Shown one piece after another: positions 30,872-62,360 of a DNA stretch of 64,000 nt. How positions within the stretch are numbered: position 1 is the first letter of the stretch; every line of letters starts with the position of its first letter. Location: positions 57,335-121,334 of IMG/VR virus record IMGVR_UViG_3300034082_004432; one strand, written 5' to 3'. The stretch comes from a virus. The notes beneath the pieces are model-generated. The model ran no database searches, had not been told where the DNA came from, and saw only the letters and a program-made list of their open reading frames with translations. The position numbers and the translations under genes were made by a program.

Positions 30872-30877
30872 GATTTT

Positions 30878-45908: not shown

Positions 45909-45942
45909 TTGCTTTCCTTCGCTTAATTCCAAATACAGGCAT

Positions 45943-46006: not shown

Positions 46007-46585
46007 CTACAAGATACGATCCGCTACACTATACATACCCAATAAATCAAAATTATGGGCTAATTTTACCATATTTTCTAGTTTTCTTGATGCCATTCCA
46101 GGCATCCCACCACCAGCTGCTCCAGCACCTTGCTCTTTTCCTTTATTTTTGGCAAAACCAAAAGATAAAAATTTCACGGCATTGGCAAAATCATCAAGAG
46201 TAATTTCAAGATCTAATAAGTTTTGACCCTCAGGCAATCTTTCCCACCTAGTTTTATCAGTTCTCTTAATTTCTTCTTCGGTAGCTTCTTCGGTTTCTTT
46301 TCTCTTGCCTCTTTTTTCTTTATCAACACCACCGTCTTCGACTCCACCATATTGAATCCAAATATCGTTGGCAATTCCTTGTTCGTTATCTTCAAGTTGC
46401 TCTAATAATTTCTTTTCTATTTCAGCATCTGCCAATATTAGGCCTAAGTTTGCCAAAGGTACTAATATTTGTTTCTGACCTGAAGGAGGAGCAGTTGGTG
46501 CAACAGGCATAGCCATAGGAGCTGCTGGCATAGCCATACCAGCTAATGGATCCATGGGCATTTGAGAAATTTTAATATATTTCAT
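46007..46585 (-). CDS. Met/Pro/Ala-rich protein with split tag motif, unrecognised
   Basis: A 192-residue protein. It begins MKYIKISQMPMD, where YIKISQ is the motif shared with other proteins of this window, then a Met/Pro/Ala-rich flexible run (GMAMPAAPMAMPVAP), then a middle part with charged segments (EKRGKRKETEEATEEE), a helical LLDLEITLDDFANAVKFLSFGF, a Gly-rich linker, and the end KLENMVKLAHNFDLLGMYSVADRIL. The last segment matches the helical tag that comes at the N-terminus of the muramidase and of the gene at 61599. So the two halves of the tag are at opposite ends here. No catalytic motif seen. Likely virion-associated, but this is inference. It lies 3 bases after the next gene upstream. 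Confidence 0.55.
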   Translation of the reverse strand: MKYIKISQMPMDPLAGMAMPAAPMAMPVAPTAPPSGQKQILVPLANLGLILADAEIEKKLLEQLEDNEQGIANDIWIQYGGVEDGGVDKEKRGKRKETEEATEEEIKRTDKTRWERLPEGQNLLDLEITLDDFANAVKFLSFGFAKNKGKEQGAGAAGGGMPGMASRKLENMVKLAHNFDLLGMYSVADRIL

Positions 46586-46588
46586 TTT

Positions 46589-47065
46589 TTATCTTATTGG
46601 GGCTGAAATAAAATCAGAGCGATGTCTGCCTCTACCAGGAGTGTCAAATGCTTCTGTAGTTTGTTGAGCATTCTCTAATTTTGTTTCTGATTCTGGTTCA
46701 TCATCTTCTTCAAATGAAAATGTATCTTCAATAACATCTGGATTTAAGATATCCATTTGTCCCCAGTTTGGTTTTGTAGTGTTTGCAACTCTTCTTATAA
46801 GTTGGGAAGCTGAAAGACCCCTTCCATCAAATATATCTTCTTCATCATTGTCCCAAGATGATAAAGTGGACATAGCAACAAGAATTGCGTCTGTCATTTG
46901 TGCTTCTATAACTCTATTGTTTGTTTTTGCAAAACGTCTAGAATTGAATTTTTTAGAAATTGTAGCTGATGCCAATGCTATAATTTTAGCTTGTTCTTCA
47001 TGTGAATGAACGTCAGGAGCAATATCTTCTAAAAGTGTATGTATCTGGGACTCTAAATTTTGCAT
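46589..47065 (-). CDS. Unrecognised small phage protein
   Basis: A 158-residue protein with a helical N-terminal part (IHTLLEDIAPDVHSHEEQAKIIALASATISKK) and an acidic C-terminal half (SFEEDDEPESETKLENAQQ), ending in an Arg-rich GRGRHRSDF. There is an AGAGAG Shine-Dalgarno-like run before the ATG. It lies 3 bases before the 192-residue gene, in the same direction, and the two are probably coexpressed. No family is recognised and no membrane segment is seen. Confidence 0.5.
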   Translation of the reverse strand: MQNLESQIHTLLEDIAPDVHSHEEQAKIIALASATISKKFNSRRFAKTNNRVIEAQMTDAILVAMSTLSSWDNDEEDIFDGRGLSASQLIRRVANTTKPNWGQMDILNPDVIEDTFSFEEDDEPESETKLENAQQTTEAFDTPGRGRHRSDFISAPIR

Positions 47066-47128
47066 ATTTTATCTCTCTTGATAAATTCTTATTACTATAT
47101 TTTTAAATTGTAGCGGGTTATACCTTTA

Positions 47129-50100
47129 CTAATCTTTTGCTATTAAGTATTCTACTTTGAATTTCATGTTTCTTACTTGCCCGTTTAAAGTAATATTGTT
47201 TGCTGAAAGAGCTGTTGTACTTGGAGTTTTTATTGCAATTCCAAAACTTTTGCTCTTTGCAGTTTGATCAATTCCCAAAGTTGCTCCACCAAGATATACA
47301 GCATTATCATATCCTGAAGTCAGTGGTTGCCAAGTTTCAGGAGATGAATTATATAATTGGAAATTAGCAGTATCAATCCAATCAATATTGTCTGTACCTA
47401 AGTTATAAGCAGTTGTTTGAGTGTTTGTAATTGTACTAGGAATTGGTAATTTTATTCTGAAATTTTTGTCAGCATTTGTTGTTCCATATCCGACTTGTAT
47501 AGACAATTGAGGCAACAATTCTGCACTATTGTCTAAGTCAGTAGCTCTAGTCCAAATGTTAGATGAGCCTATCGATGAAACTACGTAAACACCATTTGTT
47601 GTTTTATTAGTTTGATCTTTTACCAAAATTCTGTCATATTTTTGCAAAATAACTTCGTCTACTTTGCTTGGAGGATTTGTCAATGAAATCTCCGATGTTG
47701 TTGCTACTTTTGCATTTGTTAGATATGAATTGGTATTTACTTTTACCCAATATAAATTTGTAGAATCCATAGTAGGAGTTCCGCTTTCATTGTACACAAG
47801 CGCATAAGTTCCTGTCGTAGCATTTCCACTTGATACAATTACTCTTTTATTAATTGATATTTCAGATGAATTATCCAAAAGCTCATGTCTATTCAAATAG
47901 TTTGTCACAACTTCATCAATGACATAAATTCCATTTTGCAAATTATCACTTTGATTTTTTACTAACAATCTATCTCCCTTTTGTGAATTAGGGATATTAA
48001 GATTGGAATTCAATGTCAAGTTTGATGTGCTAGCAAATGAACAAGCTGTGAAATTACTAATTAGTCCTTGCTGGAACCACTGTATATTGTCAGAGCCTAC
48101 AGATGTATTTGAGGGATTATAATAAAGTTCGTAGTTGATATTTCTATTTGAATCATTTACGTACAAACTTGCAATTTGAAATTCTGTTGTTGAAGTTCCA
48201 TTGCCAACTCTTATCAAATTAGGCTCAGTTTTTTTGTTAATTCTTGCTACAATATTTTCAGAGCTAGTTGTTTGATTGATGAACAATACTTTGTCATTTT
48301 GTAAAGTTGACACTCCATTGATTACATCTGGCAATGCTTGTAAATTAGCAAAGTTTGTATGGCCCAATCCGGCTACATCAATTACATGTTCAGCCCCTAC
48401 ACTTCGCCAGAACAATGGTGTGTTTAATGCTGAGGCACCAAGGTTATAAGCAGTTGAGTCTTCGGGAAGATTTAATTCGTATGTCCTGTTGTTGTATACC
48501 ACTCTTCCAAGCGCATATAATTCATTAGTGGCATCCAAGTCTGCCGTTCTTGATAACACAAACTTGTTGTTAAGAACGGCTGTGTATATTCCATTTTTTG
48601 TACTATCAGATTGAAATTTGATTGCAACTTTATCGCCAACTTGTATATTGTAGCCATCTATCATAGCTGTAGCACCAGACCCAGACGGAGCTCCCATAGG
48701 ACCAATTACAGGGATATATGTAATATCATTGAAATTTGGAATATTGCCAGTATTTCCTACTGCAGCTGCAAAAGTAGTCCTAGTGCTTACATCAATCCAA
48801 GATCTAGCTGAAGTATTTATATTTGTGCTTAAAGGATCAAAATACAAACAGAATGTTCCGAATCCAGCTGAATTTGAAAGCCTTACTGTGGTTGGATAAA
48901 GTGAAGATCCAAAAGCTGAACTATAAGCCATTGTTACTTCTTGTATTTCTGATCTCTTAAAGGTGTAAAGTTTTTGATCACGCTTACCAGCTTTGTTATG
49001 TGTGACTAATCTATTGATATCATCGTAATATGTTGTAGTTAAAGTTGAATCAATGGTGGCATCTGAATAATCTGATGTAGTTTTATTTTTCAAAACTAAT
49101 ACATTTGTGTTTGCAGAAAGTCCTAGTCCAGAATACCAGGATGTTAATGCAATTCCAGATGGTTGATAAGCTTTTTCTAGATAAACATCACCAGTAAAAA
49201 GCCCAATTGAATTCAAAGTTACAGGATCTGTAAAATTACCACTAAATGTAGAGCTATTTCCTAGTCCAGTTTGAATATAATATCCGTCTTGTGATAGCCT
49301 ACTCGTCAAGAAATAATCAGTGACAGATTCATTTTCAACAATAATATTAGCATTGGATGCATAATTATTGCTTGAGTTGAATGAAGAAATCCAAGAACTT
49401 CTATCTCTGTTGTATTTGACTTCTGAAGTTGTGGCTGTTCCAATAATATTTACAATTTGGAAGTTTTGTGAATCAACATTCCAAGATCCTGATAATTTTG
49501 GATTAGGTGAAAGCAAGAATAATTTATCACGTAATACTTGAGGAATGTAATAATATCTATTTAATGTTTGTTTTGGATTTTCGTCATATTTTGGAACAGT
49601 TGAATCTTTGTAAAGATAGGCATACAATGTACCTGTCCAGCTTGAACCTGAAGTATTTAAGATCCCATTTTTTGCATCTACGGTGAAATCAGTGCTATAA
49701 GTCTTTGAAATTACAGTTCCACCAGTTGAAACAACAAAGACATCTATTAAGGCATCTGGATAATTAGATGTAGACCATGTGTAAACATCACTAGTTGATT
49801 CTGGTCTTGCAAGATAAATTGTATTTCCAAATGAAGATGAGTGTCTTACTAAATTTTTGGCATGATCAAGATGGCCATTTATTGAATTGTATTTTATTTT
49901 TCTTAAGTAATAATTGAAGTTTGCGTCAATACTTACAATTTGATAAATTCCACTTGTTGATTTTCGTACAGTGGAGTTATATTCATCCTCACTGCTGACA
50001 TAATAAAATACTCTGTCATTGATTTCATATGGATACTGTATTGAGTCGCCACTTATATTGCTATAAAGTTGCACACCATTTCTTCTGACAAGTAAGATAT

Positions 50101-52954
50101 CTGAAGTTACTGAATCTAAAGTAACATCTGCAGCAAGAATATGTTGTATCGGCGCTAATCTTGGGAAATTCGCTACATCTAATTGATTGGCATTTAGTCT
50201 AATTTCTGAACCTTGATAAAAAACTTCACTTCCGGTATGTAAATATTTGTCTAAATCAGATGTGGCATAATCGCTTCCAAAAGTACCCTGCCTAATTCCA
50301 ACTTCTGATTGCATGTAAACTTTGTCATAAGAAAAAGTTGTGCCAACTCCCATATAGCCATAATCAATTTTGACCAAAGTAGGCCTTTCATATGGAGATG
50401 CTAATGATTTTTGATCTGTTCCAAGGGTAAACTTAGAATTATAATAAAAATCTTCGTGTGGTGTAAAATATACGCTTCCAATGCCAGTAAATGTTGGCCT
50501 GTAAATTCCATTAGAGATACTTGATGATGAATATCCAGTGCCGACAAAAACAATTACGCTATCATTTACATCAAGTAAAGTAACTCCGCTGCCACTAGAG
50601 CTTCTTATCAAGCTCGAAATTGCAGTTCCTGATGTTGTAGGTATGCTGGTCGAAGAATTGACCATAAATACTGCTTTGACATTATACTTTTGATAATCTT
50701 GCTCATACCAATCAAAATCTAATTCTTGAAGAATTGAACTACCTTTGCCTTCGGTGCTAAAGTAGTTTTCATAATTTTGAAATGATGGGAAAAGAATTTC
50801 AGGAACAAATATTTCGCCATAATGTGTTGAAGCAATGGACGCTATTTGCATAATTCCTGATATTTGTTTTTTTAAATTTGGTGATACTGCATAAGTACCA
50901 TTGTTGTTGTTAGACAAGATATTTGTAAAAATATTTTGAGTCCACGATGATAAACTATTATCATATTTGAAAACTTGTTTAGTTGAAGCTCCAATTGCTG
51001 TTACTGAATAAACTCCATTTACCAACTCGTTACTTGTATTTACAAGAACAGATGTACCAATTGCAACAGGAACATCAAAATTTGTTGGCGATAAATAAGT
51101 AGAATCAAATTTATCTACAGTTGTTGAAGCAGTCACAAATAAATTATTTTGATTTGTGATATTGACCCAAGTAACACCTATTGAACCTGCTGCAGTTTGA
51201 GTTCCAGGGGCATACAAGAAATAAGTAGTACCAGCCCCTGTAGTACCGTTTGTTATTGTGGTAATACTTCCACGTAAAACTGAATAATCAGTTGAAAATT
51301 CAAGTCCAAGTACAGTATCACAAACTGAAGCAACTCTATAAATTCCATTCTGTGATGGATATGCCGTTTGACCTGATACCAGTACTCTTTGTGATATTGC
51401 TATTCCTGAATTTACAAAATCAACTTGGCTTACATTTGTTAAGTCAGTTTGATTTGTAATAATCAAATTAGTTACAGGTTCATAGGTATAAGGATAAAAT
51501 CTTTCTTGAATATTAATTCCATCAAAATTAAGCTTAAACGTTGAGTTGTAAGTTGTAGATTTACCCAAGAACCAAACATTTCCGCCAAGACTATTTTTAG
51601 AATTCACTGCATAAACTATATTTTGATTTATTTCAGATGGTTCATTAAAATCAGAAGCTCTTACCCACAATCCAGTACTTCCAAAACCTACATTTGAAAC
51701 TGTGTAAATTCCGCTGTAATTATTGTTGTAATGCTTGACAAGTATTCTGTTTGATGTAGATAATGTTGTTGCAACACCTGAGTAATTTGTAATCGTTCTA
51801 GGTGTGCTAGTTAGTGTTCCGGTGTTTGATCCGAAATCAAAGCTGAAGCCTATTGCACTTCCAGTTGTAACTTCATAATAATAATCAACATTAGAATGAC
51901 CATAATTATATGTAGCATCTGTCCATTTCATAGACGCTGTTGAAGCTATTCCACCTGTAAGACCAATAGCTGAATAGTATCTAAAATAACCTCCACTTTT
52001 TGCAACACCAGCATTAACAAATTGAACGTTTACTGGCAAATTTGCATTAATATAATTTATTGCAGTTTTCCAAAAATCATCAGCTGTTTCAGTGCTAGTG
52101 TATGGATCTATAAGTGAAGAAGAATTTGGTTTTGTTAAACTTGAAACGTAATAAATACCGTTTTGTGATTTTGTGGTTTGATCTTTGACGAGTACTCTAT
52201 TATTTAAAGATAAAGTAAAATTGTCTAAAACCAAAGATGAATTTGTTAATCCAGTAGATGATTGCTGTAAATTTGAGGTCGTAGCACAATTTACAGCAGC
52301 TAATGCATATCTGTTTGTTCTGTCAACCCAAATAAAGGAAGTTGAACCTGCAGATGCTGTTTCAAAAGGATTTAAGTATGGACTGTAAAGATAATATGAA
52401 GATGTTCCTACTCCTACGATCTTTGCTGCTGTAAGTACATCTTCTGCTACTATTGCCCCTACAGTCCCACTACCGACTTGTGAAGATACTCTGTAAAGTC
52501 CATTTTGAAATGCTGATGATTGAGATCTTACAAGAACTACTTTTGAACTGTCTAATTTAACTCCATCAATATATGTAGAAGCAAATAGTACACTTGTTCC
52601 ACCAATTGTTGCTGAAGATAAATTAGACACTGTTCCAACGTCAGCATTTAGTTTATTGATTATGAATGAATCAAATAGTGTAAATCTTATATCAAAACCT
52701 AGATCTTGAAGTAATTTAATATTATCAGTATTTTTAACTACTGGATAATGCTGGTTAGTATAAATGTCCGCAAACTCATTGTCAATCCAAAGTCTGATGT
52801 CATCAACATTTGTGTTTATCCATTTTAATCTGAATAATTTTTTATTCCAAGTGCCAGATATGTTAGTACCAAATCCAGCACTTGAAATTTCTCTATAAAT
52901 TTCAGATTGTGAATTATCAGCGTTTACTTCAGACCAAATGAAAGCGTGGGACAT
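47129..52954 (-). CDS. Giant tail fibre-like protein made of LVKxQ-type modules
   Basis: A 1941-residue protein, low in Cys, rich in Ser, Thr, Asn, Tyr. It has about 10-12 copies of the phage module with cores such as VLVKDQTTKSQNGIYYV, RLLVKNQSDNLQNGIYVI and RILVKDQTNKTTNGVYVV, many followed by W.R..D and a G.{2}N..Y or W.{3} end. Other parts are beta modules of the VDVFVVSTGGTVISKTYS type. Modules in the middle have decayed cores (LVNTSNELVNGVYSV, IVFVGTGYSSSSISNGIYR). It is encoded on the strand opposite the tail operon, so it may be a later acquired or separately regulated fibre. Close similarity of modules suggests growth by duplication. Structural role is likely; receptor binding is a guess. 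Confidence 0.68.
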   Translation of the reverse strand: MSHAFIWSEVNADNSQSEIYREISSAGFGTNISGTWNKKLFRLKWINTNVDDIRLWIDNEFADIYTNQHYPVVKNTDNIKLLQDLGFDIRFTLFDSFIINKLNADVGTVSNLSSATIGGTSVLFASTYIDGVKLDSSKVVLVRSQSSAFQNGLYRVSSQVGSGTVGAIVAEDVLTAAKIVGVGTSSYYLYSPYLNPFETASAGSTSFIWVDRTNRYALAAVNCATTSNLQQSSTGLTNSSLVLDNFTLSLNNRVLVKDQTTKSQNGIYYVSSLTKPNSSSLIDPYTSTETADDFWKTAINYINANLPVNVQFVNAGVAKSGGYFRYYSAIGLTGGIASTASMKWTDATYNYGHSNVDYYYEVTTGSAIGFSFDFGSNTGTLTSTPRTITNYSGVATTLSTSNRILVKHYNNNYSGIYTVSNVGFGSTGLWVRASDFNEPSEINQNIVYAVNSKNSLGGNVWFLGKSTTYNSTFKLNFDGINIQERFYPYTYEPVTNLIITNQTDLTNVSQVDFVNSGIAISQRVLVSGQTAYPSQNGIYRVASVCDTVLGLEFSTDYSVLRGSITTITNGTTGAGTTYFLYAPGTQTAAGSIGVTWVNITNQNNLFVTASTTVDKFDSTYLSPTNFDVPVAIGTSVLVNTSNELVNGVYSVTAIGASTKQVFKYDNSLSSWTQNIFTNILSNNNNGTYAVSPNLKKQISGIMQIASIASTHYGEIFVPEILFPSFQNYENYFSTEGKGSSILQELDFDWYEQDYQKYNVKAVFMVNSSTSIPTTSGTAISSLIRSSSGSGVTLLDVNDSVIVFVGTGYSSSSISNGIYRPTFTGIGSVYFTPHEDFYYNSKFTLGTDQKSLASPYERPTLVKIDYGYMGVGTTFSYDKVYMQSEVGIRQGTFGSDYATSDLDKYLHTGSEVFYQGSEIRLNANQLDVANFPRLAPIQHILAADVTLDSVTSDILLVRRNGVQLYSNISGDSIQYPYEINDRVFYYVSSEDEYNSTVRKSTSGIYQIVSIDANFNYYLRKIKYNSINGHLDHAKNLVRHSSSFGNTIYLARPESTSDVYTWSTSNYPDALIDVFVVSTGGTVISKTYSTDFTVDAKNGILNTSGSSWTGTLYAYLYKDSTVPKYDENPKQTLNRYYYIPQVLRDKLFLLSPNPKLSGSWNVDSQNFQIVNIIGTATTSEVKYNRDRSSWISSFNSSNNYASNANIIVENESVTDYFLTSRLSQDGYYIQTGLGNSSTFSGNFTDPVTLNSIGLFTGDVYLEKAYQPSGIALTSWYSGLGLSANTNVLVLKNKTTSDYSDATIDSTLTTTYYDDINRLVTHNKAGKRDQKLYTFKRSEIQEVTMAYSSAFGSSLYPTTVRLSNSAGFGTFCLYFDPLSTNINTSARSWIDVSTRTTFAAAVGNTGNIPNFNDITYIPVIGPMGAPSGSGATAMIDGYNIQVGDKVAIKFQSDSTKNGIYTAVLNNKFVLSRTADLDATNELYALGRVVYNNRTYELNLPEDSTAYNLGASALNTPLFWRSVGAEHVIDVAGLGHTNFANLQALPDVINGVSTLQNDKVLFINQTTSSENIVARINKKTEPNLIRVGNGTSTTEFQIASLYVNDSNRNINYELYYNPSNTSVGSDNIQWFQQGLISNFTACSFASTSNLTLNSNLNIPNSQKGDRLLVKNQSDNLQNGIYVIDEVVTNYLNRHELLDNSSEISINKRVIVSSGNATTGTYALVYNESGTPTMDSTNLYWVKVNTNSYLTNAKVATTSEISLTNPPSKVDEVILQKYDRILVKDQTNKTTNGVYVVSSIGSSNIWTRATDLDNSAELLPQLSIQVGYGTTNADKNFRIKLPIPSTITNTQTTAYNLGTDNIDWIDTANFQLYNSSPETWQPLTSGYDNAVYLGGATLGIDQTAKSKSFGIAIKTPSTTALSANNITLNGQVRNMKFKVEYLIAKD
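47420..52570 (-). repeat. Array of LVKxQ-type modules in the 1941-residue gene
   Basis: About 10-12 degenerate repeats of 80-130 codons lie head to tail. They share the core [IV]LV[KN].Q followed by NG[IV]Y.V about 10 residues later. The best-kept copies are at the C-terminal end (bases 47420-48010) and near the N-terminus (about 52130-52220). The same module appears in proteins encoded at 7410, 11765 and 20089. Confidence 0.6.
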
Positions 52955-52968
52955 TTATACTACCAATA

Positions 52969-54336
52969 CTAATTTCTTCTAGCTTCTGGTCTATTGAAAA
53001 TTTCACTAGCTACAGCAGCTAATTCAGATCTTTCGACCTTGCTCAATGTGACAGATGCAACGAGATCACTTTTCTTACCACCAGATATAGCATGAGAAAG
53101 GCCATTGGATTTAGCGTCAAGATAAGGATTTTCGACCTGTGAAAGATCGCCAAGAAGGATGACTTTACTGTCTTTTCCGCATCTTTCTACTACCATCCTT
53201 GCTTCTCTAGGTGAAATATTTTCAGCTTCATCAAGAATAATGATAGATCTTGGGATGGAACGGCCTTGAATGAACGCCATAGCTTCTACTTCAATGATTC
53301 CATCTCTAACCATTTCTTCAAACATATTGTTTGCAGAAAGAGACTTAGATCCTAATATTTGATCGATATTGTCTTTGATTGGACCAAGCCATGCTGAAAT
53401 CTTATCAAATTTATCTCCAGGAAGAGCACCAATATCTTTACCACCAACTGGAATCAAAGGCTTCATAACAACAATTTTGTCATAAATACCTTCATTTATC
53501 ATTTGTAATGCAGCAGCCAAAGCTAAGAATGATTTACCTGTACCTGCTGGGCCAGAAAGAGTGACAAGAGCAATTGTCAAGTCAGCTAAAATTTCTAAAG
53601 CACATTTTTGTTCTAAGTTTTTACCTTGAACTCCAGAATACCCTCTAGTCTCTTTTGCGTTAGATTTTTCTTTTAGAACCTTGAAAATACCTCTCTTATA
53701 AAGAGTTGGGCAAATATTTTCTCCGTAATGGAATAAAATGAATTCATTTGGATATATGTCGCCAAGTTTATTAATTGTATCTTCGGATAATTTTTTAAGT
53801 TCAATTTCGTTATCAGACCATAGATAGTTCCAATCTTCTTGATTGGTAAGTTCAAATTTTCTTAAACCAGTGTAAATTTCATCAGAAAGTTGATCTGCTC
53901 TATAATTTTCAGCTGCACAGCCCCAAGTAATAGCACGAATTCTTAATCCGGTATCTTTTGTAATAATTGCAACCTTTTTTCTAGGATTTGCTGACTTAAG
54001 AGCCAAGCAACATTCTATAATTGCATTATCAGAGTGGACTTTAACAATATTAGGTCTTTCATTTTTTTGTAAAGGAGACTCTGTATTGTAGACAAACAAT
54101 CTTCCTCCAAGCTCATTGATCTTTACGCCTTTGAGAAGATCTTGAAGAGAGTAGTGTTCTAAATTTCTAAATACTTGTCTGGCTGACCATCCAACATTTT
54201 CTTTTCTTGTCTTGATGTCGTCCAAATCATCGATGACAGCTAATGGGATATAAATATCATTGTCACCGAATTTGTAAAGAGCAAGGGGATCGTGAAGTAA
54301 GACACAAGTGTCGATGATGTAAATATGCTTTGCCAA
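52969..54336 (-). CDS. phoH: PIN-PhoH fusion (PhoH2-type ATPase/RNase)
   Basis: A 455-residue protein. The start is TTG 54336: GAGGAG lies 9 bases upstream, and the PIN fold begins at once (KHIYIIDTCVLLHDP). The N-terminal half is a PIN domain with the acid Asp in IIDTC; the C-terminal half is a PhoH ATPase with Walker A GPAGTGKS and the Walker B-like ILDEAENISPREAR followed by LLGDLSQVENP. Such PhoH2 proteins are thought to be RNA helicase-nucleases. Phages often carry PhoH; the PIN fusion is more like the bacterial form. The gene is followed 14 bases later by the 1941-residue gene in the same direction, suggesting cotranscription. Confidence 0.88.
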   Translation of the reverse strand: MAKHIYIIDTCVLLHDPLALYKFGDNDIYIPLAVIDDLDDIKTRKENVGWSARQVFRNLEHYSLQDLLKGVKINELGGRLFVYNTESPLQKNERPNIVKVHSDNAIIECCLALKSANPRKKVAIITKDTGLRIRAITWGCAAENYRADQLSDEIYTGLRKFELTNQEDWNYLWSDNEIELKKLSEDTINKLGDIYPNEFILFHYGENICPTLYKRGIFKVLKEKSNAKETRGYSGVQGKNLEQKCALEILADLTIALVTLSGPAGTGKSFLALAAALQMINEGIYDKIVVMKPLIPVGGKDIGALPGDKFDKISAWLGPIKDNIDQILGSKSLSANNMFEEMVRDGIIEVEAMAFIQGRSIPRSIIILDEAENISPREARMVVERCGKDSKVILLGDLSQVENPYLDAKSNGLSHAISGGKKSDLVASVTLSKVERSELAAVASEIFNRPEARRN

Positions 54337-54411
54337 ATTATTGGTCTCCTCGCATTTTTGTTGATTTTGTAATCACAATGTTGTTTTCTTTTTTATGCTG
54401 ATTCAGCCCTA

Positions 54412-55401
54412 CTATAAAGGCAATTCAGGCTTGGCTGATTTTTTAAAAACAGGTCTAGATTTGTCTATATTCTCAAGAAATTCTGCAGCTTGTTCGTCAT
54501 TGTTATAAATGAATTTTCTAATGTTTAATATTTCTGAAAGTTTATTTTTATCAAACTCTTTCATTGATTCACTATCCATCATCATTGCTTGATTGACGTT
54601 TACTTTTGCTTTCAACTCACCAGTATTGTATTTTCGCAAATCTTCTAATAATTTATGTTCAATATAATCATTTGCAGTAGATAGATTTGTAGTTTCTAAT
54701 AAATCCAAATCACTATACGCAGCTTTTGTTATATTGCCATTGATAAGTTTTTTTCCATCAGGAGATACAACAGCATTTTCTTCTCTTAGGAAATATAAAT
54801 TTGCTTTTGGTATACAAATATAAATTTTAAATGGAAGTGCTTTGTCAACATCTTCATTTGTTGTTAATCTTAATACTTCATTCTCATCATTAACTATTGA
54901 AATTACAAGTTTAGTTTTGTCATGGTCTTTTATAACAAAATCCCATTCATAATTGTGTTCGTTTGAAGATGGAAAGAATGCTGGAACAATATTTAAGTTA
55001 TTCTTAATCTCGCATAATTTTAAGAACAAACTGAACCCAATGGTATCTTCTGGAGTACCTTTGCGGTATGTACCTACTTTGGTCCAGTCTACTTTAAAAT
55101 TTTCGTTTTCATCAGATACAATATATTCTTCGAAAAACCCTTGATCATAAATTTTTTTAAGCAAAGGATCTTCCAAAATTCTTCTAGCTCGCACAATGTC
55201 TAAAAATTGTTCACTGGACCCACCAAAATCAGGATGACATTTTCTTGCTTTAATTCTAAAAGCTTTTTCTAAAACTTCTGATGTTTTGATAATTTCTGAT
55301 CTTGATTTACCTGTTGGGAGGTCCTCTTTTACCAATCCCAAAATAAAATAGTAATCTTTATTAAAATCTATTATTTTTTTAGGGTCAAATTCATTGGACA
55401 T
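54412..55401 (-). CDS. Second J-domain protein with unknown C-terminal part
   Basis: A 329-residue protein. Residues about 16-92 form a J domain: YYFILGLVKEDLPTG, then FRIKARKCHPDFGGSSEQF with HPD at 56-58, then ARRILEDPLLKKIYDQGFF. A ~9-residue loop before helix II makes it longer than usual. The remaining ~235 residues have no DnaJ zinc or substrate domains and I do not recognise them (NNLNIVPAFFPSSNEHNYEWDFVI, ALPFKIYICIPKANLYFL). J domains recruit DnaK to given clients, so this may be an adaptor to the phage DnaK. A TATAAA lies 7 bases upstream of the ATG on its strand. Confidence 0.75.
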   Translation of the reverse strand: MSNEFDPKKIIDFNKDYYFILGLVKEDLPTGKSRSEIIKTSEVLEKAFRIKARKCHPDFGGSSEQFLDIVRARRILEDPLLKKIYDQGFFEEYIVSDENENFKVDWTKVGTYRKGTPEDTIGFSLFLKLCEIKNNLNIVPAFFPSSNEHNYEWDFVIKDHDKTKLVISIVNDENEVLRLTTNEDVDKALPFKIYICIPKANLYFLREENAVVSPDGKKLINGNITKAAYSDLDLLETTNLSTANDYIEHKLLEDLRKYNTGELKAKVNVNQAMMMDSESMKEFDKNKLSEILNIRKFIYNNDEQAAEFLENIDKSRPVFKKSAKPELPL

Positions 55402-55407
55402 ATACCT

Positions 55408-55415
55408 TTTATAAA
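55408..55415. promoter_or_regulatory. Two-way -10-like boxes between J-domain gene and muramidase
   Basis: In the 40-base gap between divergent genes, TATAAA reads on the minus strand (55413 to 55408) and on the plus strand (55410-55415), because the local sequence CCTTTTATAAAGG is near-palindromic. The minus one ends 7 bases before its ATG, as in the leaderless candidates. No -35 box is obvious. Confidence 0.35.
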
Positions 55416-55441
55416 GGATTTAGTAATTTGGAGATTTATTG

Positions 55442-56395
55442 ATGAAATATCTTACGTTGGCAAAACTAGCTAATAAACTTGATAAGCTTGGTTCTTATTC
55501 AAAAGCAGATGAAATTACAAATACCCTTATAAAAATATCTCAAAAAGAATTACCTTTTGACATAACTGAAGGAGAAACATATAACGATCCTGACACAGTT
55601 ATGAAATACTTTACAGGTTTTGCTTTTGACATGTATACAAAGAATAAAAACATTTCAAAAAAACGAATTGAGATGGAAGTTAAGAAAAAACTTCAAGACA
55701 AAATACAAGACATGAAACTTGAAGATAAGGAAAAATATAAAAATTTTGATTTAGAAGTTATGAAAAATCTAGAAAATCAATCATGGTACAAAGATTTAAA
55801 TGAAACTCAAGATTTTGAAATGCAAGATGAATCTGTTAAATTTGATCCAAATAGTAGTGGTTTCAAGAATGCAATCAAATATATCCTAAATGTTGAAGGC
55901 GGATACAGTGACTATAATTCAAGCACTGGAGATCCAAGAACAAACTTAGGAATAATCCAAAGTGAGTATGACGAGTACAGATCTGATAAAGGTTTGGAAA
56001 AACAAAGCGTTCGTAATATTACCGTAGATGAAGCTAAAGAGATATACTTTGATAATTATTGGGTGCCAACAAAAAGTGAAACTATTTATAAAAGTTTCCC
56101 AAAAACTGCTATTGCGATCTTTGATTTTGCTGTAAATTCAGGATTATCTGGCGCTTCATCATTGGTTGCTAAAACACTAGATATTCAAAATACAAGATTT
56201 GACAATAATATGGTCAATCAGATAATGATGGCAGCTGGAACAATTGGTGATTCTCAGTTAGTTAGCAACTTAATTCAAAAAAGACGTATCAATTATCAAG
56301 ATATTATCAAGAGAAAACCACAAAAATCAGTTTATGGCCCAGGTTGGCAGAATAGAATGAATAAATTAGAAAATTTTACTGAAGACGACAAATAA
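55442..56395 (+). CDS. GH108-type N-acetylmuramidase with N-terminal tag motif
   Basis: The ATG at 55442 follows GGAG by 8 bases; a TTG 3 bases up is less likely. The 317-residue product begins with the tag: LAKLANKLDKLGSYSKAD at 6-23 and LIKISQ ending at Gln34. Residues about 35-130 are charged and helical with no known domain. From about 140 it has the GH108 plan: catalytic Glu152 in VEGGYSD, then TNLGIIQSEYD, then a C-terminal peptidoglycan-binding half with GDSQLVSNLIQKRR and YGPGWQNRMNKL. The enzyme cuts the glycan of peptidoglycan, so it is an endolysin or virion lysozyme. The tag and the lack of a signal peptide favour a virion-bound role, but lysis is equally possible. Confidence 0.8.
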   Translation: MKYLTLAKLANKLDKLGSYSKADEITNTLIKISQKELPFDITEGETYNDPDTVMKYFTGFAFDMYTKNKNISKKRIEMEVKKKLQDKIQDMKLEDKEKYKNFDLEVMKNLENQSWYKDLNETQDFEMQDESVKFDPNSSGFKNAIKYILNVEGGYSDYNSSTGDPRTNLGIIQSEYDEYRSDKGLEKQSVRNITVDEAKEIYFDNYWVPTKSETIYKSFPKTAIAIFDFAVNSGLSGASSLVAKTLDIQNTRFDNNMVNQIMMAAGTIGDSQLVSNLIQKRRINYQDIIKRKPQKSVYGPGWQNRMNKLENFTEDDK

Positions 56396-56396
56396 C

Positions 56397-56894
56397 ATGT
56401 GGTATAAATTTGCTAAGAAATATAACATGTTTGGATTGCCAATTTCTGGTGACTTAAAATTTAATTTATTTGCTGATGAAGATGCAGATGAATCAACTGT
56501 AGAAGAAACACCTTTGGAAATTCCTGACACTGAGCTTCCAGAAGAAAGAGATGAACAATTAGGTGAGAATGAAGGCCCACCAAATCCTCTTGAAATTACA
56601 GTAGAAGATCCTTCTGGTGATGATAATTTTACAACAGAAGACTTGCAAGAAAATGTTGAAAAAATAGAAAACGATCCTACAGCAATGATACAATTGCCAC
56701 CATTACATGATCGTTGCCATTGTAGAATTGAAACTTTCCCAATTTTATCTATTCCTGGCGTAAGAGATGGTAAAAGAGTTTGGCAGAAGTCTGAAAATTG
56801 TTGCCCAAAATGCTATGAAACAGCTGTAAAATTCAATGAAGCTGAAGTGCAGAGATTACTAAATAAAGGAATTGATCTTAATAGAATATCCTGA
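56397..56894 (+). CDS. Acidic protein with MuF-type HxxCxC motif
   Basis: A 165-residue protein. It starts WYKFAKKYNMFGLPISG, then has a long acidic stretch (about residues 28-95, mainly Glu, Asp, Pro), then LPPLHDRCHCRIETFP with His104, Cys107 and Cys109, then CCPKCYE. The HxxCxC motif is the signature near the end of Mu gpF-like minor head proteins, where it binds metal; the usual upstream MuF body is absent. So it may be a detached MuF tail or an analogous zinc site. It starts 2 bases after the muramidase stop. It overlaps the convergent next gene by 36 bases. Assignment is tentative. Confidence 0.5.
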   Translation: MWYKFAKKYNMFGLPISGDLKFNLFADEDADESTVEETPLEIPDTELPEERDEQLGENEGPPNPLEITVEDPSGDDNFTTEDLQENVEKIENDPTAMIQLPPLHDRCHCRIETFPILSIPGVRDGKRVWQKSENCCPKCYETAVKFNEAEVQRLLNKGIDLNRIS

Positions 56895-57431
56895 TAAATC
56901 TATATCAATCTTTTTGTTTAATATTTTTTTATTGGGATTCTTAACCAATTTCAGATTTGCTAGCAGTCTGTTTTTTAAGTCAATACGCAAATCAGATTTC
57001 ATGATTTCTTTTGCAATTAAAGATTTTATTTTAAATAAATCAATTTCAATGTGTAGCAAGTTGTAAAAAATTTTCTCTTCTATAGCTTCAAAAGTGCTTG
57101 AATTATGCTTTGCTTCTTGAATTGAAAGACATTCAAATAAGTTAGAAACAAAATATTTAATAGTATTATATTTTTGCAGATTCATAATTGATAGATCGTG
57201 TAATTCGTTTAAATTAAACAAATAATCAATGTCCCCAATTAATTGAAATAAATTACCGTCAGCATCAATTATATAAAAAGCAATAATTTTATTGTTTTGT
57301 ATTATTGATATAACTGGTTGCCCAGACCTCAAACCAATAAACATAATTTTAGAAATATTAGACGGATTACTGATTCCAAGCATATGGACATCATCTTCTT
57401 TTCTGCGAACAAAAGTTAAATATGCTTTCAT
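56859..57431 (-). CDS. Unrecognised phage protein
   Basis: A 190-residue protein. It has a beta-like N-terminal half (KAYLTFVRRKEDDVHMLGI, QPVISIIQNNKIIAFYIIDADGNLF) and a helical C-terminal half rich in Lys, Leu and Ile (IKSLIAKEIMKSDLRIDLKNRLL). No cysteine motif. Its stop lies inside the convergent acidic gene (36-base overlap). Start overlaps the upstream gene by 4 bases (ATGA-type). No family recognised. Composition is more AT-rich than the structural genes. Confidence 0.5.
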   Translation of the reverse strand: MKAYLTFVRRKEDDVHMLGISNPSNISKIMFIGLRSGQPVISIIQNNKIIAFYIIDADGNLFQLIGDIDYLFNLNELHDLSIMNLQKYNTIKYFVSNLFECLSIQEAKHNSSTFEAIEEKIFYNLLHIEIDLFKIKSLIAKEIMKSDLRIDLKNRLLANLKLVKNPNKKILNKKIDIDLSGYSIKINSFI

Positions 57432-58030
57432 TTAATGATCAAATGTTCAATCAAAGTAGATTCTTTGTAGTTTGCAGAATGACCCCAAATATTTATCCAA
57501 TAGTCAATTATTTTATTTTTTCTGGATAATGTAAAACAAGTTTCATAAATTTGATGTTCAATATTTGCTTCTGACAAAAGATAATTTGCATATTTATTTC
57601 TTGAATTGTAAATATTCAAAATATTACTTGAAAAATAATTTTGATTACATAAAATAAAATTATGTAAATCATCTTTGTCAAATGGATTTAGTCTCAATTT
57701 GTCATACACAACAGTAAGTTGCAAATCTTCAAAAATTTCTTCAATCAAGCTTATCAACTGAAGTTTTTTATTTTTAGGCAAGAGAAATAAATCTATTGGT
57801 TTTAAATTAATTTTTCTTATGTTATTTTCATTTATTTTCTTCATTTCTGAAGGATTTAAATTTTGACATGAAAATAACTGTTCTTCATAAGACTCATGAT
57901 TTTCAAAACTAATCCAATAATGTACAGGGTGTTCAAACAAAAATGCTCTCAAACTAATAATAATTTCCAATCTATCGTTTTGAGAGCATTGATTTACCTT
58001 ATTGGAAATTTCAATTAATGTATTCAACAC
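57428..58030 (-). CDS. Unrecognised phage protein
   Basis: A 200-residue, mostly helical protein rich in Asn, Ile, Leu, with two Cys in the middle (FSCQNLNPSEM, ILCNQNYF). It resembles no family I know. It starts 3 bases after the 87-residue gene and overlaps the 190-residue gene by 4 bases, so the minus strand set of four genes (58533 to 56859) is one operon. The genes here are more AT-rich than others in the window. Confidence 0.5.
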   Translation of the reverse strand: MLNTLIEISNKVNQCSQNDRLEIIISLRAFLFEHPVHYWISFENHESYEEQLFSCQNLNPSEMKKINENNIRKINLKPIDLFLLPKNKKLQLISLIEEIFEDLQLTVVYDKLRLNPFDKDDLHNFILCNQNYFSSNILNIYNSRNKYANYLLSEANIEHQIYETCFTLSRKNKIIDYWINIWGHSANYKESTLIEHLIIK

Positions 58031-58033
58031 TCA

Positions 58034-58297
58034 TTATTTTTTGCCAAATAAATGATAAACAGCTTCATTGACGATTGGCTGTAAGCTCATTCCTTTTGAA
58101 TATAATCTCACGTTGGCAATAGAACCATAGCTTTCATCCAAATACTTAAACAATCTTCTTAACTTTCTATCAACTTCGATTTCAGAAGGATTGTAATTTT
58201 TTTGAAGAGCACAAAGTCTTCTGATAGCATTTTCGCCATCAATTTTAATGATCTTCATCTCGTAAGTTGGTTGTTGCGGATCTGGTTCAGTACTCAT
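58034..58297 (-). CDS. Small basic protein, unrecognised
   Basis: An 87-residue protein with a Pro/Gln N-terminus (STEPDPQQPTYEM) and a basic helical core (NAIRRLCALQK, EVDRKLRRLFKYLDESYG). It could bind nucleic acid or protein partners, but no motif shows it. It begins 2 bases after the 77-residue gene. No Shine-Dalgarno is evident, so coupling is likely. Confidence 0.5.
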   Translation of the reverse strand: MSTEPDPQQPTYEMKIIKIDGENAIRRLCALQKNYNPSEIEVDRKLRRLFKYLDESYGSIANVRLYSKGMSLQPIVNEAVYHLFGKK

Positions 58298-58299
58298 AA

Positions 58300-58533
58300 T
58301 TATTTACTTATATCTAAATTTTGTACGTGAATTTCGTTATATGCAAAAGCAACATTTTGGCTTGGGACATTGAATAAACATATCACCATCTTCTCATCTT
58401 TGAATATAGTGTAAAAATCTTTATTCACTAAAAGAACACCCTCAATTGGTCCTATAAGTGCTGATGGATTGTAGGTTTGAATTTTCCATTTTCCATTACC
58501 CCTATTTTGTGAATTATTATCAACTGTTGCCAT
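58300..58533 (-). CDS. Small unrecognised protein
   Basis: A 77-residue protein with a polar Asn/Gly N-terminus and a beta-like body (YNPSALIGPIEGVLLVNK, MVICLFNVPSQN). The start has a strong GGAGGA Shine-Dalgarno about 8 bases upstream, and it is the first of a four-gene minus strand operon divergent from clpX. No family recognised. Confidence 0.5.
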   Translation of the reverse strand: MATVDNNSQNRGNGKWKIQTYNPSALIGPIEGVLLVNKDFYTIFKDEKMVICLFNVPSQNVAFAYNEIHVQNLDISK

Positions 58534-58594
58534 ATTTTTTCCTCCAAAACGAATATATTATTATTTGTAGACTCACTTATATCCTACCTATATG

Positions 58595-58611
58595 TATAAT
58601 ATTTAGGAGGG
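58595..58611 (+). promoter_or_regulatory. -10 box and Shine-Dalgarno before clpX
   Basis: TATAAT at 58595-58600 (preceded by TG) is followed by AGGAGGG at 58605-58611 and the ATG at 58618. The expected start, near 58607, would be inside the Shine-Dalgarno, so the leader is very short. No clear -35 box. Confidence 0.5.
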
Positions 58612-58617
58612 AAACAT

Positions 58618-59970
58618 ATGGGTAATAAGACATTAGTTCACGCTTGTAATTTTTGCGATAGACCGGCCACCAAAGATGTATTAGGCGAATTAGAAATATT
58701 TGAGTACAAAATTGCAAAAATTTATCTTTGTGATCAATGTTTCAAGAGCTACAAAACTGGAAATAAATTTGGACAGCTTCAAATTCATCAAAACATCATG
58801 TCATTGATAATCAATGCTGAAGATGATGCTCCTATTCTTAGTTTGAAAGAAAAGTTAGCTGAAGTAGCTCCACTATCTAAAAAGTTCTTATTTGAAAGAA
58901 GACAGAATATTTTTAAGAAAGTTACTCCACAAGATCTTTATGAAAATTTAGACAAAAAAGTTGTTGGGCAAGATAACGCAAAGAAGCGAATTAGTATAGC
59001 TGTGTTTGAACATATGAGAAATATCATGCATACTAGACTAAATGATAAGCAAAATATTTTGTTTCTTGGTCCTTCTGGTAGTGGAAAAACTTTGATTGTT
59101 AATACAATTTCTAAGTTTTTAGATGTGCCTTATGTTTCCGGAGATGCAACATCTTTTTCTCCAACAGGCTTTCAAGGATCTGATTCAGACTCTGTAATTA
59201 CTGATTTATTGATAAAAGCAAATGGTGAACCTGGCCTTGCGGAAAAAGGTGTCGTTTTCATTGATGAAATTGATAAGCTTGCTTCCAATATGAGTTCAGC
59301 AACAAGATTAGAAAGCTTTCATTATTCAACACAAAGCACTCTTTTGAAGTTGATAGAAGGCAAAAAAATAAAGGTAAATTCGTCTGCTTTAGGAGAACAA
59401 GGCTCTCCTCCAGTAGTAGTCGATACATCTAGTATTTTATTTTGTTTTGGAGGCGCTTTTAACGGGCTGGAAAAGATTGTTGCTAAGAAGCTAGGTCTCA
59501 CTGAAGGATCTATAGGATTCAGAAATACAAAAAGTGCTGATTATGAGACTCAAATAAAAAATTATGAAATTTATGAAAAAGCTTCACACGAAATTTTGAG
59601 TGAAAGTTTGATTGAATATGGCATGTCTACAGAGTTCGTTGGCCGAATTCAGAGCATAGTTCCTTTGGTTCCTTTATCAAAAGAACAAATGCTATATTGC
59701 TTGTTGCAACTTGAAGACTCTCCAATAATTAAGAATCAAATTATGTTTGCTGAATCTAATGTTGAATTGATGTTCGATGAAGAATATTATGATGAAGTAG
59801 TTGAAAAAGCCATCAAGTCTGGCACTGGAACTAGAGCGTTAAATTCTATAGTAAAGGCTTCATTATCAAGTGCAGCATTTGATTTATTGGGATTACAACA
59901 CAGCCAAGTAAAAAAGGTTTCTATATCTAAAGGTTGTGTATCAAATCCAAAATTATACACACTTGAATAA
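58618..59970 (+). CDS. clpX: ClpX ATPase (unfoldase)
   Basis: A 450-residue AAA+ unfoldase. An N-terminal zinc-binding domain has Cys10, Cys13, Cys38 and Cys41, as in ClpX. The AAA+ part has Walker A GPSGSGKT at 151-158, Walker B VVFIDEID near 213, and the sensor-2 arginine in GTGTRALNS at about 402-410. The IGF motif needed to dock on ClpP is present (Ile299-Phe301, in EGSIGFRNT). No clpP gene was seen here, so it could use host ClpP and redirect proteolysis, or work alone as a remodelling ATPase. It is divergent to a four-gene operon. Two residues of pore loops were not checked. Confidence 0.9.
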   Translation: MGNKTLVHACNFCDRPATKDVLGELEIFEYKIAKIYLCDQCFKSYKTGNKFGQLQIHQNIMSLIINAEDDAPILSLKEKLAEVAPLSKKFLFERRQNIFKKVTPQDLYENLDKKVVGQDNAKKRISIAVFEHMRNIMHTRLNDKQNILFLGPSGSGKTLIVNTISKFLDVPYVSGDATSFSPTGFQGSDSDSVITDLLIKANGEPGLAEKGVVFIDEIDKLASNMSSATRLESFHYSTQSTLLKLIEGKKIKVNSSALGEQGSPPVVVDTSSILFCFGGAFNGLEKIVAKKLGLTEGSIGFRNTKSADYETQIKNYEIYEKASHEILSESLIEYGMSTEFVGRIQSIVPLVPLSKEQMLYCLLQLEDSPIIKNQIMFAESNVELMFDEEYYDEVVEKAIKSGTGTRALNSIVKASLSSAAFDLLGLQHSQVKKVSISKGCVSNPKLYTLE

Positions 59971-60005
59971 AGGTTGTCTATTTTGACATCTAGTAATTTA
60001 ATAAC

Positions 60006-60941
60006 ATGGAAAATCATGAAATTATTAAGCTTGCAGTAAGGTTAACAGAAGAGAATAATTATGTTTGCAAAATTGCTGCAATCAATCAAGCTTTTATGAT
60101 TAAAGCAAAAGATAAGCTAGGTACAATCGATACTTTCATTACTGTGAGAGGTATTGAGACAGCAGATCAGTGGAAATTAGCATTTACAACTGCAGGATTC
60201 TCTGATGTAATTGTCTCCCCTTTTAGAGGAAGTGGCAATCTGTCTATGAAAGATGTAAATAGTGATTTATTTGACGCAGTTTCTGAACGTGCAAAATGGA
60301 GATTTGAGACAAAACCTGAAGGTTACAATACTCCTTTCACATCTTATAATCCATATGCTGGGAAAGATACTGAATTTGATTCATCTGACCCTAGATTAAG
60401 TAAAACTGTTTCCGTTGATGACACTAATGAATATCAGAAATATTTATTTGAAAAATATTTTAAAAAAGAAAAAGACAGAATTTTTTCAGGTTGGTTTGAT
60501 GGAAGTTTGGTAGATTGGTTGTCTAAAATTGCTAGTATTGATACAGAAGTAAATGAAATATTAAGTAAAAAAACTTTTGCATATTTGTATTCTTCTCCCA
60601 AGATTATTCAATTTATGTATGACATGAGTGTTCACAATCCAGAATTTGATCCGAAAACTTTTGAACCAAGCAAAGTCCAAATAAAAAATCTTATAATAAA
60701 AATGTATCCTTTAATAAATATTTTAGTTTCGTCTGATGTTGATGCTGATGAATTTCCAGAAAATTTAATTTACCCTCAACTTGATATGATTGTTCAAAAA
60801 GCAAGAAATCATAAATTTTTCAAACAATATGAACAAAAAGACTTAAACGAAATGCAACAATCTGAAATTAATCAGCAATTTGAAAAAGATAAAGCAACAT
60901 ACCAAAAAATAAAGAGATTCTTGAGAGGTCTTTCAGCATGA
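60006..60941 (+). CDS. Unrecognised protein with diverged tag-like N-terminus
   Basis: A 311-residue protein. Residues 5-34 (IIKLAVRLTEENNY...MIKAK) look like a diverged copy of the tag motif of the muramidase (LAKLANKLDKLGSYS...LIKISQ). The rest is mainly helical with a Trp/Phe-rich middle (FSGWFDGSLVDWLSKIA) and a charged end. No catalytic or membrane motif. No Shine-Dalgarno is obvious. It overlaps the next gene by 4 bases. The gene may code a virion component, but this is inferred from the tag only. Confidence 0.5.
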   Translation: MENHEIIKLAVRLTEENNYVCKIAAINQAFMIKAKDKLGTIDTFITVRGIETADQWKLAFTTAGFSDVIVSPFRGSGNLSMKDVNSDLFDAVSERAKWRFETKPEGYNTPFTSYNPYAGKDTEFDSSDPRLSKTVSVDDTNEYQKYLFEKYFKKEKDRIFSGWFDGSLVDWLSKIASIDTEVNEILSKKTFAYLYSSPKIIQFMYDMSVHNPEFDPKTFEPSKVQIKNLIIKMYPLINILVSSDVDADEFPENLIYPQLDMIVQKARNHKFFKQYEQKDLNEMQQSEINQQFEKDKATYQKIKRFLRGLSA

Positions 60942-61618
60942 GTAAATTTAGAAAAATTGCAGCGATTCCCGCCAAGCTACCAGGCAATGCTGGCATGGCA
61001 GGTTTGTTTAGTCAGTTTATGGATGCTAAAGATATGGATGAATTCTTAAATAAAAAGAACATCTCGAGAAACTTACAATTTATAGCAGCTTTATTTCCTG
61101 GTTTTACAGACAGATATTCTCCATCAGCTTTTTACCATGCTTTAGAATATGATAAAGACAGAGGCTACAATAATACCTCTCACTCACAAGGCGCACATGA
61201 ACTTTTAGATCCAAAAATTATGGAGGAAGTGAAAAAGTTTAAGAAGAATCCTCCAAAAGACCTTAAGGATGTAGACGGAAAACCAATAAAAAGTTTGGAA
61301 AATATAAATTTACCAGAGACATCAGGAAGATATAAAGCCATGGAAGAACAATTGTATCCAGAAGAAAAGAAAGAAGCTCAAAATACTAATTCTAAATTTG
61401 TAAAAACTTCTCAAGTATCAAAAGCTAAAGAATTAGAAAGAATCGTTCCAAAGTGGACTATTGAAGATGTTATTAAAGACATGGCAAGAGTTGCAAAAAG
61501 ATCAGATCTTTCACAAGTAGACAAACAACAAACAATGATTAACATATTATCAAATTATGAAAAATTGATAGCTCCGTTGAGTAATTTTCTAAATAAAAAT
61601 GGCATACAATATAAATAA
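60938..61618 (+). CDS. Unrecognised protein with internal KTSQ motif
   Basis: A 226-residue protein. The N-terminal half is hydrophobic and Gly/Phe-rich (LPGNAGMAGLFSQFM, FIAALFPGFTD), the middle is charged, and residues 154-159 read FVKTSQ, the shared motif, with helical, Lys/Glu-rich sequence after it (KAKELERIVPKW). If the motif is a cleavage site, two parts of about 159 and 67 residues would result. GAGAGGT lies upstream of the ATG as Shine-Dalgarno. It overlaps the next gene by 20 bases. Confidence 0.5.
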   Translation: MSKFRKIAAIPAKLPGNAGMAGLFSQFMDAKDMDEFLNKKNISRNLQFIAALFPGFTDRYSPSAFYHALEYDKDRGYNNTSHSQGAHELLDPKIMEEVKKFKKNPPKDLKDVDGKPIKSLENINLPETSGRYKAMEEQLYPEEKKEAQNTNSKFVKTSQVSKAKELERIVPKWTIEDVIKDMARVAKRSDLSQVDKQQTMINILSNYEKLIAPLSNFLNKNGIQYK

Positions 61619-62360
61619 ATTATTTGAAATTGCAAAGTTATTAGATACAAAGGGTAAGTACTCTTTATCTGATAAAGTTGATAATTTCATTAAGACTTCT
61701 CAAAGTTTACTTCCAACTTTGCCAAGTGAATATCAGCCTACATCATCGCCTGTAACTGGAAATCCATTTATTGACTCAATGTTTCAAAACATGAGCGATA
61801 CAGCAGCTGGATCACAATTTGCTGGAGGTGGAATGTATGATCGTTTTTCACCTTACAAATCCAAAATGGGTCCAAATGCTCCAGGTATATTGCCTACAAT
61901 TACTCCTGCTCAATTAGCTGAATTATCAAAAACTGAAAAAGGCAGAGAGTATCTTGCACAAATGCAACTTAGAGGTGGTTTAAAAGCCACAAATTATGAA
62001 AATTTATCAAATGCAGGTATGACAAGTTTTGCAAAGCTTGTAGACCAGTTCTTGAATCCTGGAGTTGCCAAAGAAGTTCAGCAATCATTTTTGAATGATA
62101 CTTTCCCAGGCGCATTAACTGGCCAATTATCTAATATTTTGACAAGATTTCCAATTAATGAATGGCTTATGAGATTAAACCCATTTTATAACCTTGCTTC
62201 AAAATATCCTCAACATTCAGCAAAAATTACACAGAGTATAAATACTGCTGCAAAATCTGCAATAGAAAATTTAAGATATCACGATCCAGTTCAATACGAA
62301 AAAATTATTAAAGATCCTAAATTCAAGCCATTTCAAGCAAAATTTAATTTCAATATTTAG
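61599..62360 (+). CDS. Unrecognised protein with N-terminal tag motif
   Basis: A 253-residue protein with the tag in full: NINKLFEIAKLLDTKGKYSL, then KVDNFIKTSQ ending at Gln35. After this comes a Pro/Ser/Gly-rich flexible part (about 36-90) and a helical body (YLAQMQLRGGLKATNYENL, VQQSFLNDTFPGALTG). There is no known catalytic motif. It starts in the last codons of the previous gene. With its neighbour and the gene at 60006 it forms a three-gene set likely to be virion-associated. Confidence 0.55.
   Translation: MAYNINKLFEIAKLLDTKGKYSLSDKVDNFIKTSQSLLPTLPSEYQPTSSPVTGNPFIDSMFQNMSDTAAGSQFAGGGMYDRFSPYKSKMGPNAPGILPTITPAQLAELSKTEKGREYLAQMQLRGGLKATNYENLSNAGMTSFAKLVDQFLNPGVAKEVQQSFLNDTFPGALTGQLSNILTRFPINEWLMRLNPFYNLASKYPQHSAKITQSINTAAKSAIENLRYHDPVQYEKIIKDPKFKPFQAKFNFNI

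Follow-up and report, generated by a model that had tools for sequence, protein, structure and literature searches.

A short segment that recurs at the ends of unrelated proteins was analysed in the last 64 kb of the 121,334-base virus record IMGVR_UViG_3300034082_004432 (64,000 nucleotides, positions 57,335 to 121,334 of that record; hereafter the window) and in related phage genomes. The segment, roughly 30 residues long and predicted to form a two-helix hairpin, is, in our moderately confident judgement, a portable capsid-targeting propeptide that can be used at either protein end and is cleaved by the head-maturation protease. This reading is favoured because the hairpin is common to unrelated protein bodies, a short motif lies on its cargo side and is enriched in the proteins of the head module, and tagged proteins occur within that module. 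It is also favoured because a second, shorter tag is found on predicted virion-cargo families, homologous bodies bear different tags, one genome has tagged peptidoglycan hydrolases beside an untagged hydrolase of the GH108 family, and propeptides of phage T4 provide a precedent.

According to the proposed mechanism, the hairpin at one end of a protein would dock on the prohead during its assembly, at the scaffold or core, and the protein would become enclosed. The head-maturation protease would then cut at [KR]-[ILVT]-[AS], often with Q following, on the cargo side of the tag, where helix 2 ends in N-terminal tags and within helix 1 in C-terminal tags. The tag would be removed, and the cargo would remain in the head and be ejected together with the DNA. 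A second set of cargo proteins would be served in the same way by a shorter tag, MWY[KR]xA(Q).

Occurrence of the hairpin in a phage lineage

A profile built from three copies separated the N-terminus of a muramidase, the N-terminus of a 253-residue protein (61599) and the C-terminus of a 192-residue protein from the other proteins of the window, and also matched two more proteins in G001, a related 169-kb record. An earlier note on the window had placed the segment at exactly these three sites and had described its direct join to KxSQ in the first two; both observations were reproduced (Table 1 for the independent E-values, i-E, of the iterated profile at a database size set to 1490 proteins), the joins being K-I-S-Q in the muramidase and K-T-S-Q in 61599. 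A faint fourth copy that had been suspected at the N-terminus of the 60006 product turned out to be a chance score with negative bits, the common part being only a short IIKLA. The same note had overlooked a half-segment at 30196 and two short tags, MWYKFA (56397) and MSKFRKIA (60938).

The iterated profile found 62 copies in six records (G000, 3; G001, 4; G002, 1; G010, 22; G011, 17; G017, 15), the richest of which holds its 22 copies in one 358-kb genome. Reversed proteins as a control gave a best score of only E=1.1. In line with the portability that had been supposed, at least one match at E<=1 was present in 28 of 34 whole related records, with 15-21 copies in the richest, and a second set of relatives had matches in 24 of 47 at E<=0.01. 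Phage G, Tunturi_5, LR745208, Rctr197k, T4, phiKZ and Phabba yielded no hairpin match at E<=10, and 30 bacterial genomes (about 90 Mb) yielded one at E<=0.01.

Most of the 62 copies are N-terminal (46, against 12 C-terminal and 4 internal), mostly within the first 40 residues. Without the hairpin, the bodies of the bearers fell into 38 unrelated clusters, 26 of them singletons. The hairpin is thus a terminal sequence common to otherwise unrelated proteins, as is the capsid-targeting sequence (CTS) of the T4 type. Pfam and PHROGs gave no name to most of the tagged bodies, and the papers retrieved describe no tag of this kind. That the segment is a commonplace helical hairpin which the duplication of genes and shuffling of domains have spread, with no single shared function, is most improbable. 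Such folds are common, and the tandem tagged genes at 145-152 kb of G010 look recently duplicated, but the segment is terminal in nearly all cases, its L..A..LD..G.Y..AD pattern is conserved across unrelated bodies, and it is nearly absent from the 30 bacterial genomes and the seven other phages. In the G010 stretch (145.5-151.7 kb; L147:12518-18647), a run of genes nearly all carry an N-terminal hairpin on partly related bodies, and a similar group of hairpin genes lies at 28.9-31.4 kb of G011.

The record of the window begins, at its left end, within the C-terminus of the major capsid protein (MCP). With the complete MCP gene of G001 as query, 142 viral contigs were retrieved, many of them 100-479 kb long. 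The closest isolate is Bacillus phage G, whose gp27 is 47.7% identical to the MCP over 99% of the query, and the portal and head-maturation protease are homologous to gp14 and gp19 of the same phage. As judged from these three homologous head proteins, the hairpin bearers are uncultivated jumbo phages that form a lineage related to phage G.

Sequence and predicted fold

The consensus reads [L]xK[IL]AxxLDxxGxYxx(A/S)D, after which comes a second helix that ends in [KR][ILV][AS](Q). An AlphaFold model of the muramidase N-terminus, made with 27 other copies, gave a confident fold with helices at residues 2-16 and 19-36 and predicted local distance difference test (pLDDT) values of 95-97, and the segment is accordingly predicted to be a two-helix hairpin. 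The earlier picture of a portable helix-turn-helix pair for docking or packaging therefore holds for the predicted hairpin, the unrelated bodies and the use of either terminus, and is consistent with the motif of the head module; the role itself is what we infer from these features.

Neither Pfam nor PDB profiles assigned the hairpin to a family. Foldseek against the PDB listed many single tetratricopeptide repeat (TPR) units among its best matches, with root-mean-square deviations of about 0.5-1.3 A and E-values of 3.8-9, values above 1 being expected for so short a model. The geometry superposes on single TPR units, and the L..A..L...G.Y..A spacing resembles the first half of the TPR consensus. 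However, the hairpin stands single and no tandem array of the TPR type, and hence no superhelix, was found, there being one hairpin per protein. Membership in the TPR family was rejected by profile, as Pfam TPR matched one of 40 copies, at E 0.15.

A motif beside the tag

The position of the motif [KR][ILVTY][AS] was compared in 79 non-redundant copies, with one entry counted as C-terminal (L112) being a truncated N-terminal copy. At the end of helix 2 the motif was present in 44/58 N-terminal but in only 4/16 C-terminal hairpins (p=3e-4), a contrast inflated by the protein end, which cuts helix 2 short in C-terminal copies. Within helix 1 the relation was reversed (12/16 C-terminal against 23/58 N-terminal copies, p=0.02); the windows of both comparisons were set after inspection of the data. 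With those cautions, the motif appears usually to face the cargo side, whichever end bears the tag. The longer form [KR][ILV][AS]Q had a frequency per 1000 of 1.41 in residues 1-12, 0.86 in residues 25-40 and about 0.2 deeper in the proteins.

The 192-residue protein carries both kinds of end. The earlier note had explained its C-terminal hairpin and N-terminal YIKISQ as halves of a circular permutation. This explanation was given up because two separate tags are conserved in homologues, MKY-[IVL]-K-[LI]-[AS]-Q at the start and, at the C-terminus, a hairpin whose helix 1 holds a [KR][LI][AS] of its own. In T4, Alt likewise bears a propeptide at each end (PMC9026906). The hairpin is kept in 8 homologues, and the short tag reads MKY(V/L)KLAQ in most homologues and MKTVIKRIAQ in that of G011. 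The protein begins with MKYIKIS|Q, has VKLA|H ahead of its final hairpin and is better read as doubly tagged. An AlphaFold model of the whole protein reached a pLDDT of 41, at which the two predicted C-terminal helices are unreliable.

The motif in head-assembly proteins

Fourteen proteins make up the head module of G001 (134.4-152.1 kb). They include the portal, the major head protein and a 1391-residue protein (G001:137821-141996), the N-terminal part of which is the head-maturation protease (phrog_18299, E 1e-20). In head-module proteins, the counts of [KR][ILVT]A exceeded the expectation from shuffles 3-4x, with 53 observed against 14.0 expected in G001, 53 against 13.5 in G010, 57 against 14.5 in G011 and 49 against 15.8 in G017, whereas ten control patterns (reversed, acidic or with other third residues) stayed at about 1x and the rest of the G001 genome had a ratio of 1.27x. 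Among 5832 class patterns scanned, [KR][ILVT]A ranked first in G017 and second in G001, after its own subset [KR]TA. Conservation reached 69% of comparisons for these sites and 44% for control triplets; the conserved sites include IIKTA at 30 and IRLAQ at 304 on either side of the protease domain (about 90-250), GRTALAQ at the capsid N-terminus, and sites in the portal. Phage G head proteins contain [KR][ILVT]A 13 times against 5.8 expected (2.2x), too few for a claim. A protease recognition site would be expected to show such enrichment and conservation, and this protease may be the one that uses it.

The module itself contains tagged proteins, a hairpin protein at G001 150632 and the family of 144504, which carries the shorter tag. 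These bear on the proposal that the hairpin targets proteins within the infected cell, for example to a replication compartment, membrane or phage hub, and not to the virion, which we regard as quite unlikely. Many bearers are small and of unrecognised function, some lie distant from the structural genes, and selective protein import is known in nucleus-forming jumbo phages (PMC11087766). Against such targeting stand the tagged proteins of the head module and the lack of a tag on GyrA, GyrB, DnaK, DnaJ, ClpX, the clamp loader and dUTPase, as recognised by eye in the window and G001.

It is also unlikely, if less so, that the hairpin stays uncleaved and serves as a docking domain by which proteins are anchored to a virion structure such as the inner body, portal/neck or baseplate, with [KR]x[AS] merely a part of helix 2. 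A predicted folded unit with the geometry of a TPR unit, a protein-docking fold, would suit such a function, and cell-wall hydrolases, on which the hairpin occurs, are often tail components. An anchor of this kind does not account for a motif that switches sides with the position of the tag, for its specific enrichment in head-module proteins, or for MWY[KR]xA, which differs in sequence and ends in the same motif.

A second tag and the putative cargo

Thirty-seven proteins start with (M)(x)WY, mostly as MWY[KR], where the frequency of WY predicts about one at a given position. Many of these tags lead into [KR]xA, often [KR]xAQ. No such start was found among 493 proteins of phage G or among 232 proteins from the bacterial part of an associated contig. 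The protein adjoining the portal (G001 144504 and homologues) begins with MWYKQVL[AS]Q. Proteins tagged with MWY or KxSQ include ART-PolyVal, InPase, NUDIX+HAD_SAK_2, PolyA_pol+HD, GNAT and PcfJ; ADP-ribosyltransferases and InPase were predicted, in an analysis of polyvalent proteins, to be packaged in the virion and injected (PMC5512222).

Homologous bodies with different tags were found in G010 (229228, hairpin) and G011 (56671, MWYRLS). Their alignment begins directly after both tags, with 22% identity over 244 residues and a pairwise E of 2e-9. A second apparent swap (G010 225735 and L068) was rejected, the common part being only a C-terminal basic Cys module. This small module, approximately (K/R)WSxKYKxxINCxNPKGFSQKQYCKRK, occurs on tagged proteins at L068:15925-16191, G010 225735-226940 and G011 306570-307121.

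G011 encodes a hairpin-tagged GH108 enzyme, a GH73-type glucosaminidase that matches the window muramidase in its N-terminal region, and an untagged GH108, as if the tagged hydrolases were virion enzymes and the untagged one served in lysis. The presence of the segment on lytic enzymes would also fit a role unrelated to packaging, in which it marked proteins for regulated proteolysis or kept enzymes inactive as an autoinhibitory pro-segment. The half-segment of a trypsin-like protease would agree with this as well, and a pro-segment would likewise be cut on the cargo side. We nevertheless consider such a role very unlikely, since the majority of bearers do not belong to a single enzyme class and others carry the hairpin at the C-terminus, and a pro-segment should co-evolve with its enzyme, yet homologous bodies bear different tags.

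Comparison with known systems and weight of the evidence

In T4, propeptides of 7-65 residues direct the internal proteins and Alt to the prohead core. They are cut off by gp21, in Alt at both ends (PMC9026906). The hairpin resembles the T4 CTS in that a short N-terminal sequence common to different proteins adjoins a head-protease site, here a putative one; moreover, one set of bearers includes ADP-ribosyltransferases, and one protein is tagged at both ends, as is Alt (PMC9026906). Unlike the T4 CTS of about 10 residues, it is a folded hairpin of about 30, is also used C-terminally and reaches about 20 copies per genome, and its putative site is [KR][ILVT][AS], whereas the T4 motif ends in Glu.

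Head proteins of the jumbo phages SPN3US and phiKZ also have N-terminal propeptides, which are removed by the prohead protease after A-X-E or similar and were proposed to act like a CTS (PMC5694885). In contrast to the hairpin, of which phiKZ had no copy, these propeptides exceed 100 residues in several cases. Polyvalent proteins, early-phase effectors of phages and conjugative elements, share with the present system the ART-PolyVal and InPase domains that occur here behind the short tag; they are defined by domain combinations, and no common terminal tag turned up in parts of the same analysis (PMC5512222).

Besides the cautions on the position test, several points weigh against the capsid-targeting reading. 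The tagged group is known here from sequence alone, and many tagged bodies lack a recognisable function. About a quarter of the N-terminal hairpins have no motif at the expected place, and the fold itself may account for [KR]-[hydrophobic]-A in helix 1. The known proteases of jumbo phages and T4 cut after Glu, not after Ala or Ser (PMC5694885), and sequence similarity to the T4 CTS is absent, just as T4 lacked any hairpin match at E<=10.

Tagged proteins in the window

The features are collected in Table 1. Homologues of the muramidase in G011 and G017 belong to Pfam Glyco_hydro_108. The hairpin of 61599 is kept in G001, in a homologue that is 57% identical over the protein. The trypsin-like protease at 30196 (Trypsin_2, E 5e-20) has a half-segment that is kept in G001 and G002 and is not detected by the hairpin profile.

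Table 1. Tags and related features in the window (positions in the 64,000-nucleotide stretch).
Feature	Position	Strand	Basis or remark
N-terminal half-segment (18 residues) of trypsin-like protease 30196-30870	30196..30249	+	helix 2 plus motif only, no full hairpin
C-terminal hairpin tag of 192-residue protein 46007-46585 (residues 166-192, K-L-A-H in helix 1)	46010..46090	-	profile i-E 3e-6
Short N-terminal tag MKYIKISQ of 192-residue protein	46562..46585	-	homologue alignment
Tagged muramidase (endolysin-type)	55442..56395	+	phrog_315 endolysin E 2e-29
N-terminal hairpin tag of GH108-type muramidase (residues 1-36)	55442..55549	+	profile i-E 3e-8; helix 1 residues 2-16, helix 2 residues 19-36
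Putative cleavage motif K31-I32-S33|Q34 of muramidase tag	55532-55543	+	motif pattern
Short N-terminal tag MWYKFA of next gene (56397-56894)	56397..56414	+	sequence
Supposed fourth copy, N-terminus of 311-residue product, no hairpin	60006..60128	+	i-E 640, negative score
Short N-terminal stretch MSKFRKIA of 226-residue protein, same motif at end	60938..60961	+	single copy, seen in sequence only
N-terminal hairpin tag of 253-residue protein 61599-62360 (residues 1-35)	61599..61703	+	profile i-E 4e-8
Motif K32-T33-S34|Q35 of 253-residue protein tag	61692-61703	+	

Further observations

Adjacent genes at 28707-31861 of the window encode a subtilisin-like protease, a signal-peptidase-like protein, the trypsin-like protease and a DnaJ-like protein, with DnaK soon after (34998). 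A phage-encoded, untagged type II topoisomerase pair (GyrA- and GyrB-like) lies at 41263-45932. In the left arm of the record (L001 and the start of L002) there is a long series of genes for sugar and nucleotide-sugar metabolism, including epimerases, aminotransferases, dehydroquinate-synthase-like and thiamine-dependent enzymes.

The G001 portal (L022:9098-11488) has an unusual C-terminal fusion to an MTES_1575/DUF559 endonuclease-like domain (E 2e-9 and 1.5e-6). A second, partial MCP-like protein, possibly a vertex protein, is encoded directly downstream of an MCP gene at L058:12754-13836.

JAFDWS010000002.1 (L240-L279; G072:C5) is a 1.36-Mb contig of a metagenome-assembled genome that bears the label Armatimonadetes, and its first ~532 kb have stretches rich in phage homologues. 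This part has a GC content of 0.53-0.54, an MCP that is 80% identical, and hairpins. Sampled stretches at ~240-372 kb had few or no phage homologues, and GC later shifts to about 0.60-0.61. The phage-like region is either a very large prophage or a chimeric assembly.

Implications

More tentatively, and with a little less than even confidence, we propose that the lineage uses two interchangeable cleavable tags that load tens of enzymes per virion, that sequence alone reveals which proteins are packaged and injected, and that its protease cuts at [KR][ILVT][AS] and not after Glu. If the capsid-targeting reading is true, the hairpin would represent a folded packaging tag usable at two ends, together with a new specificity of a head protease. 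The long-standing prediction that proteins of the polyvalent type, such as ADP-ribosyltransferases and InPase, travel in the virion would be put to the test. The injected proteins of these giant phages could then be listed by a simple sequence search, though most of them would come without a recognisable domain.

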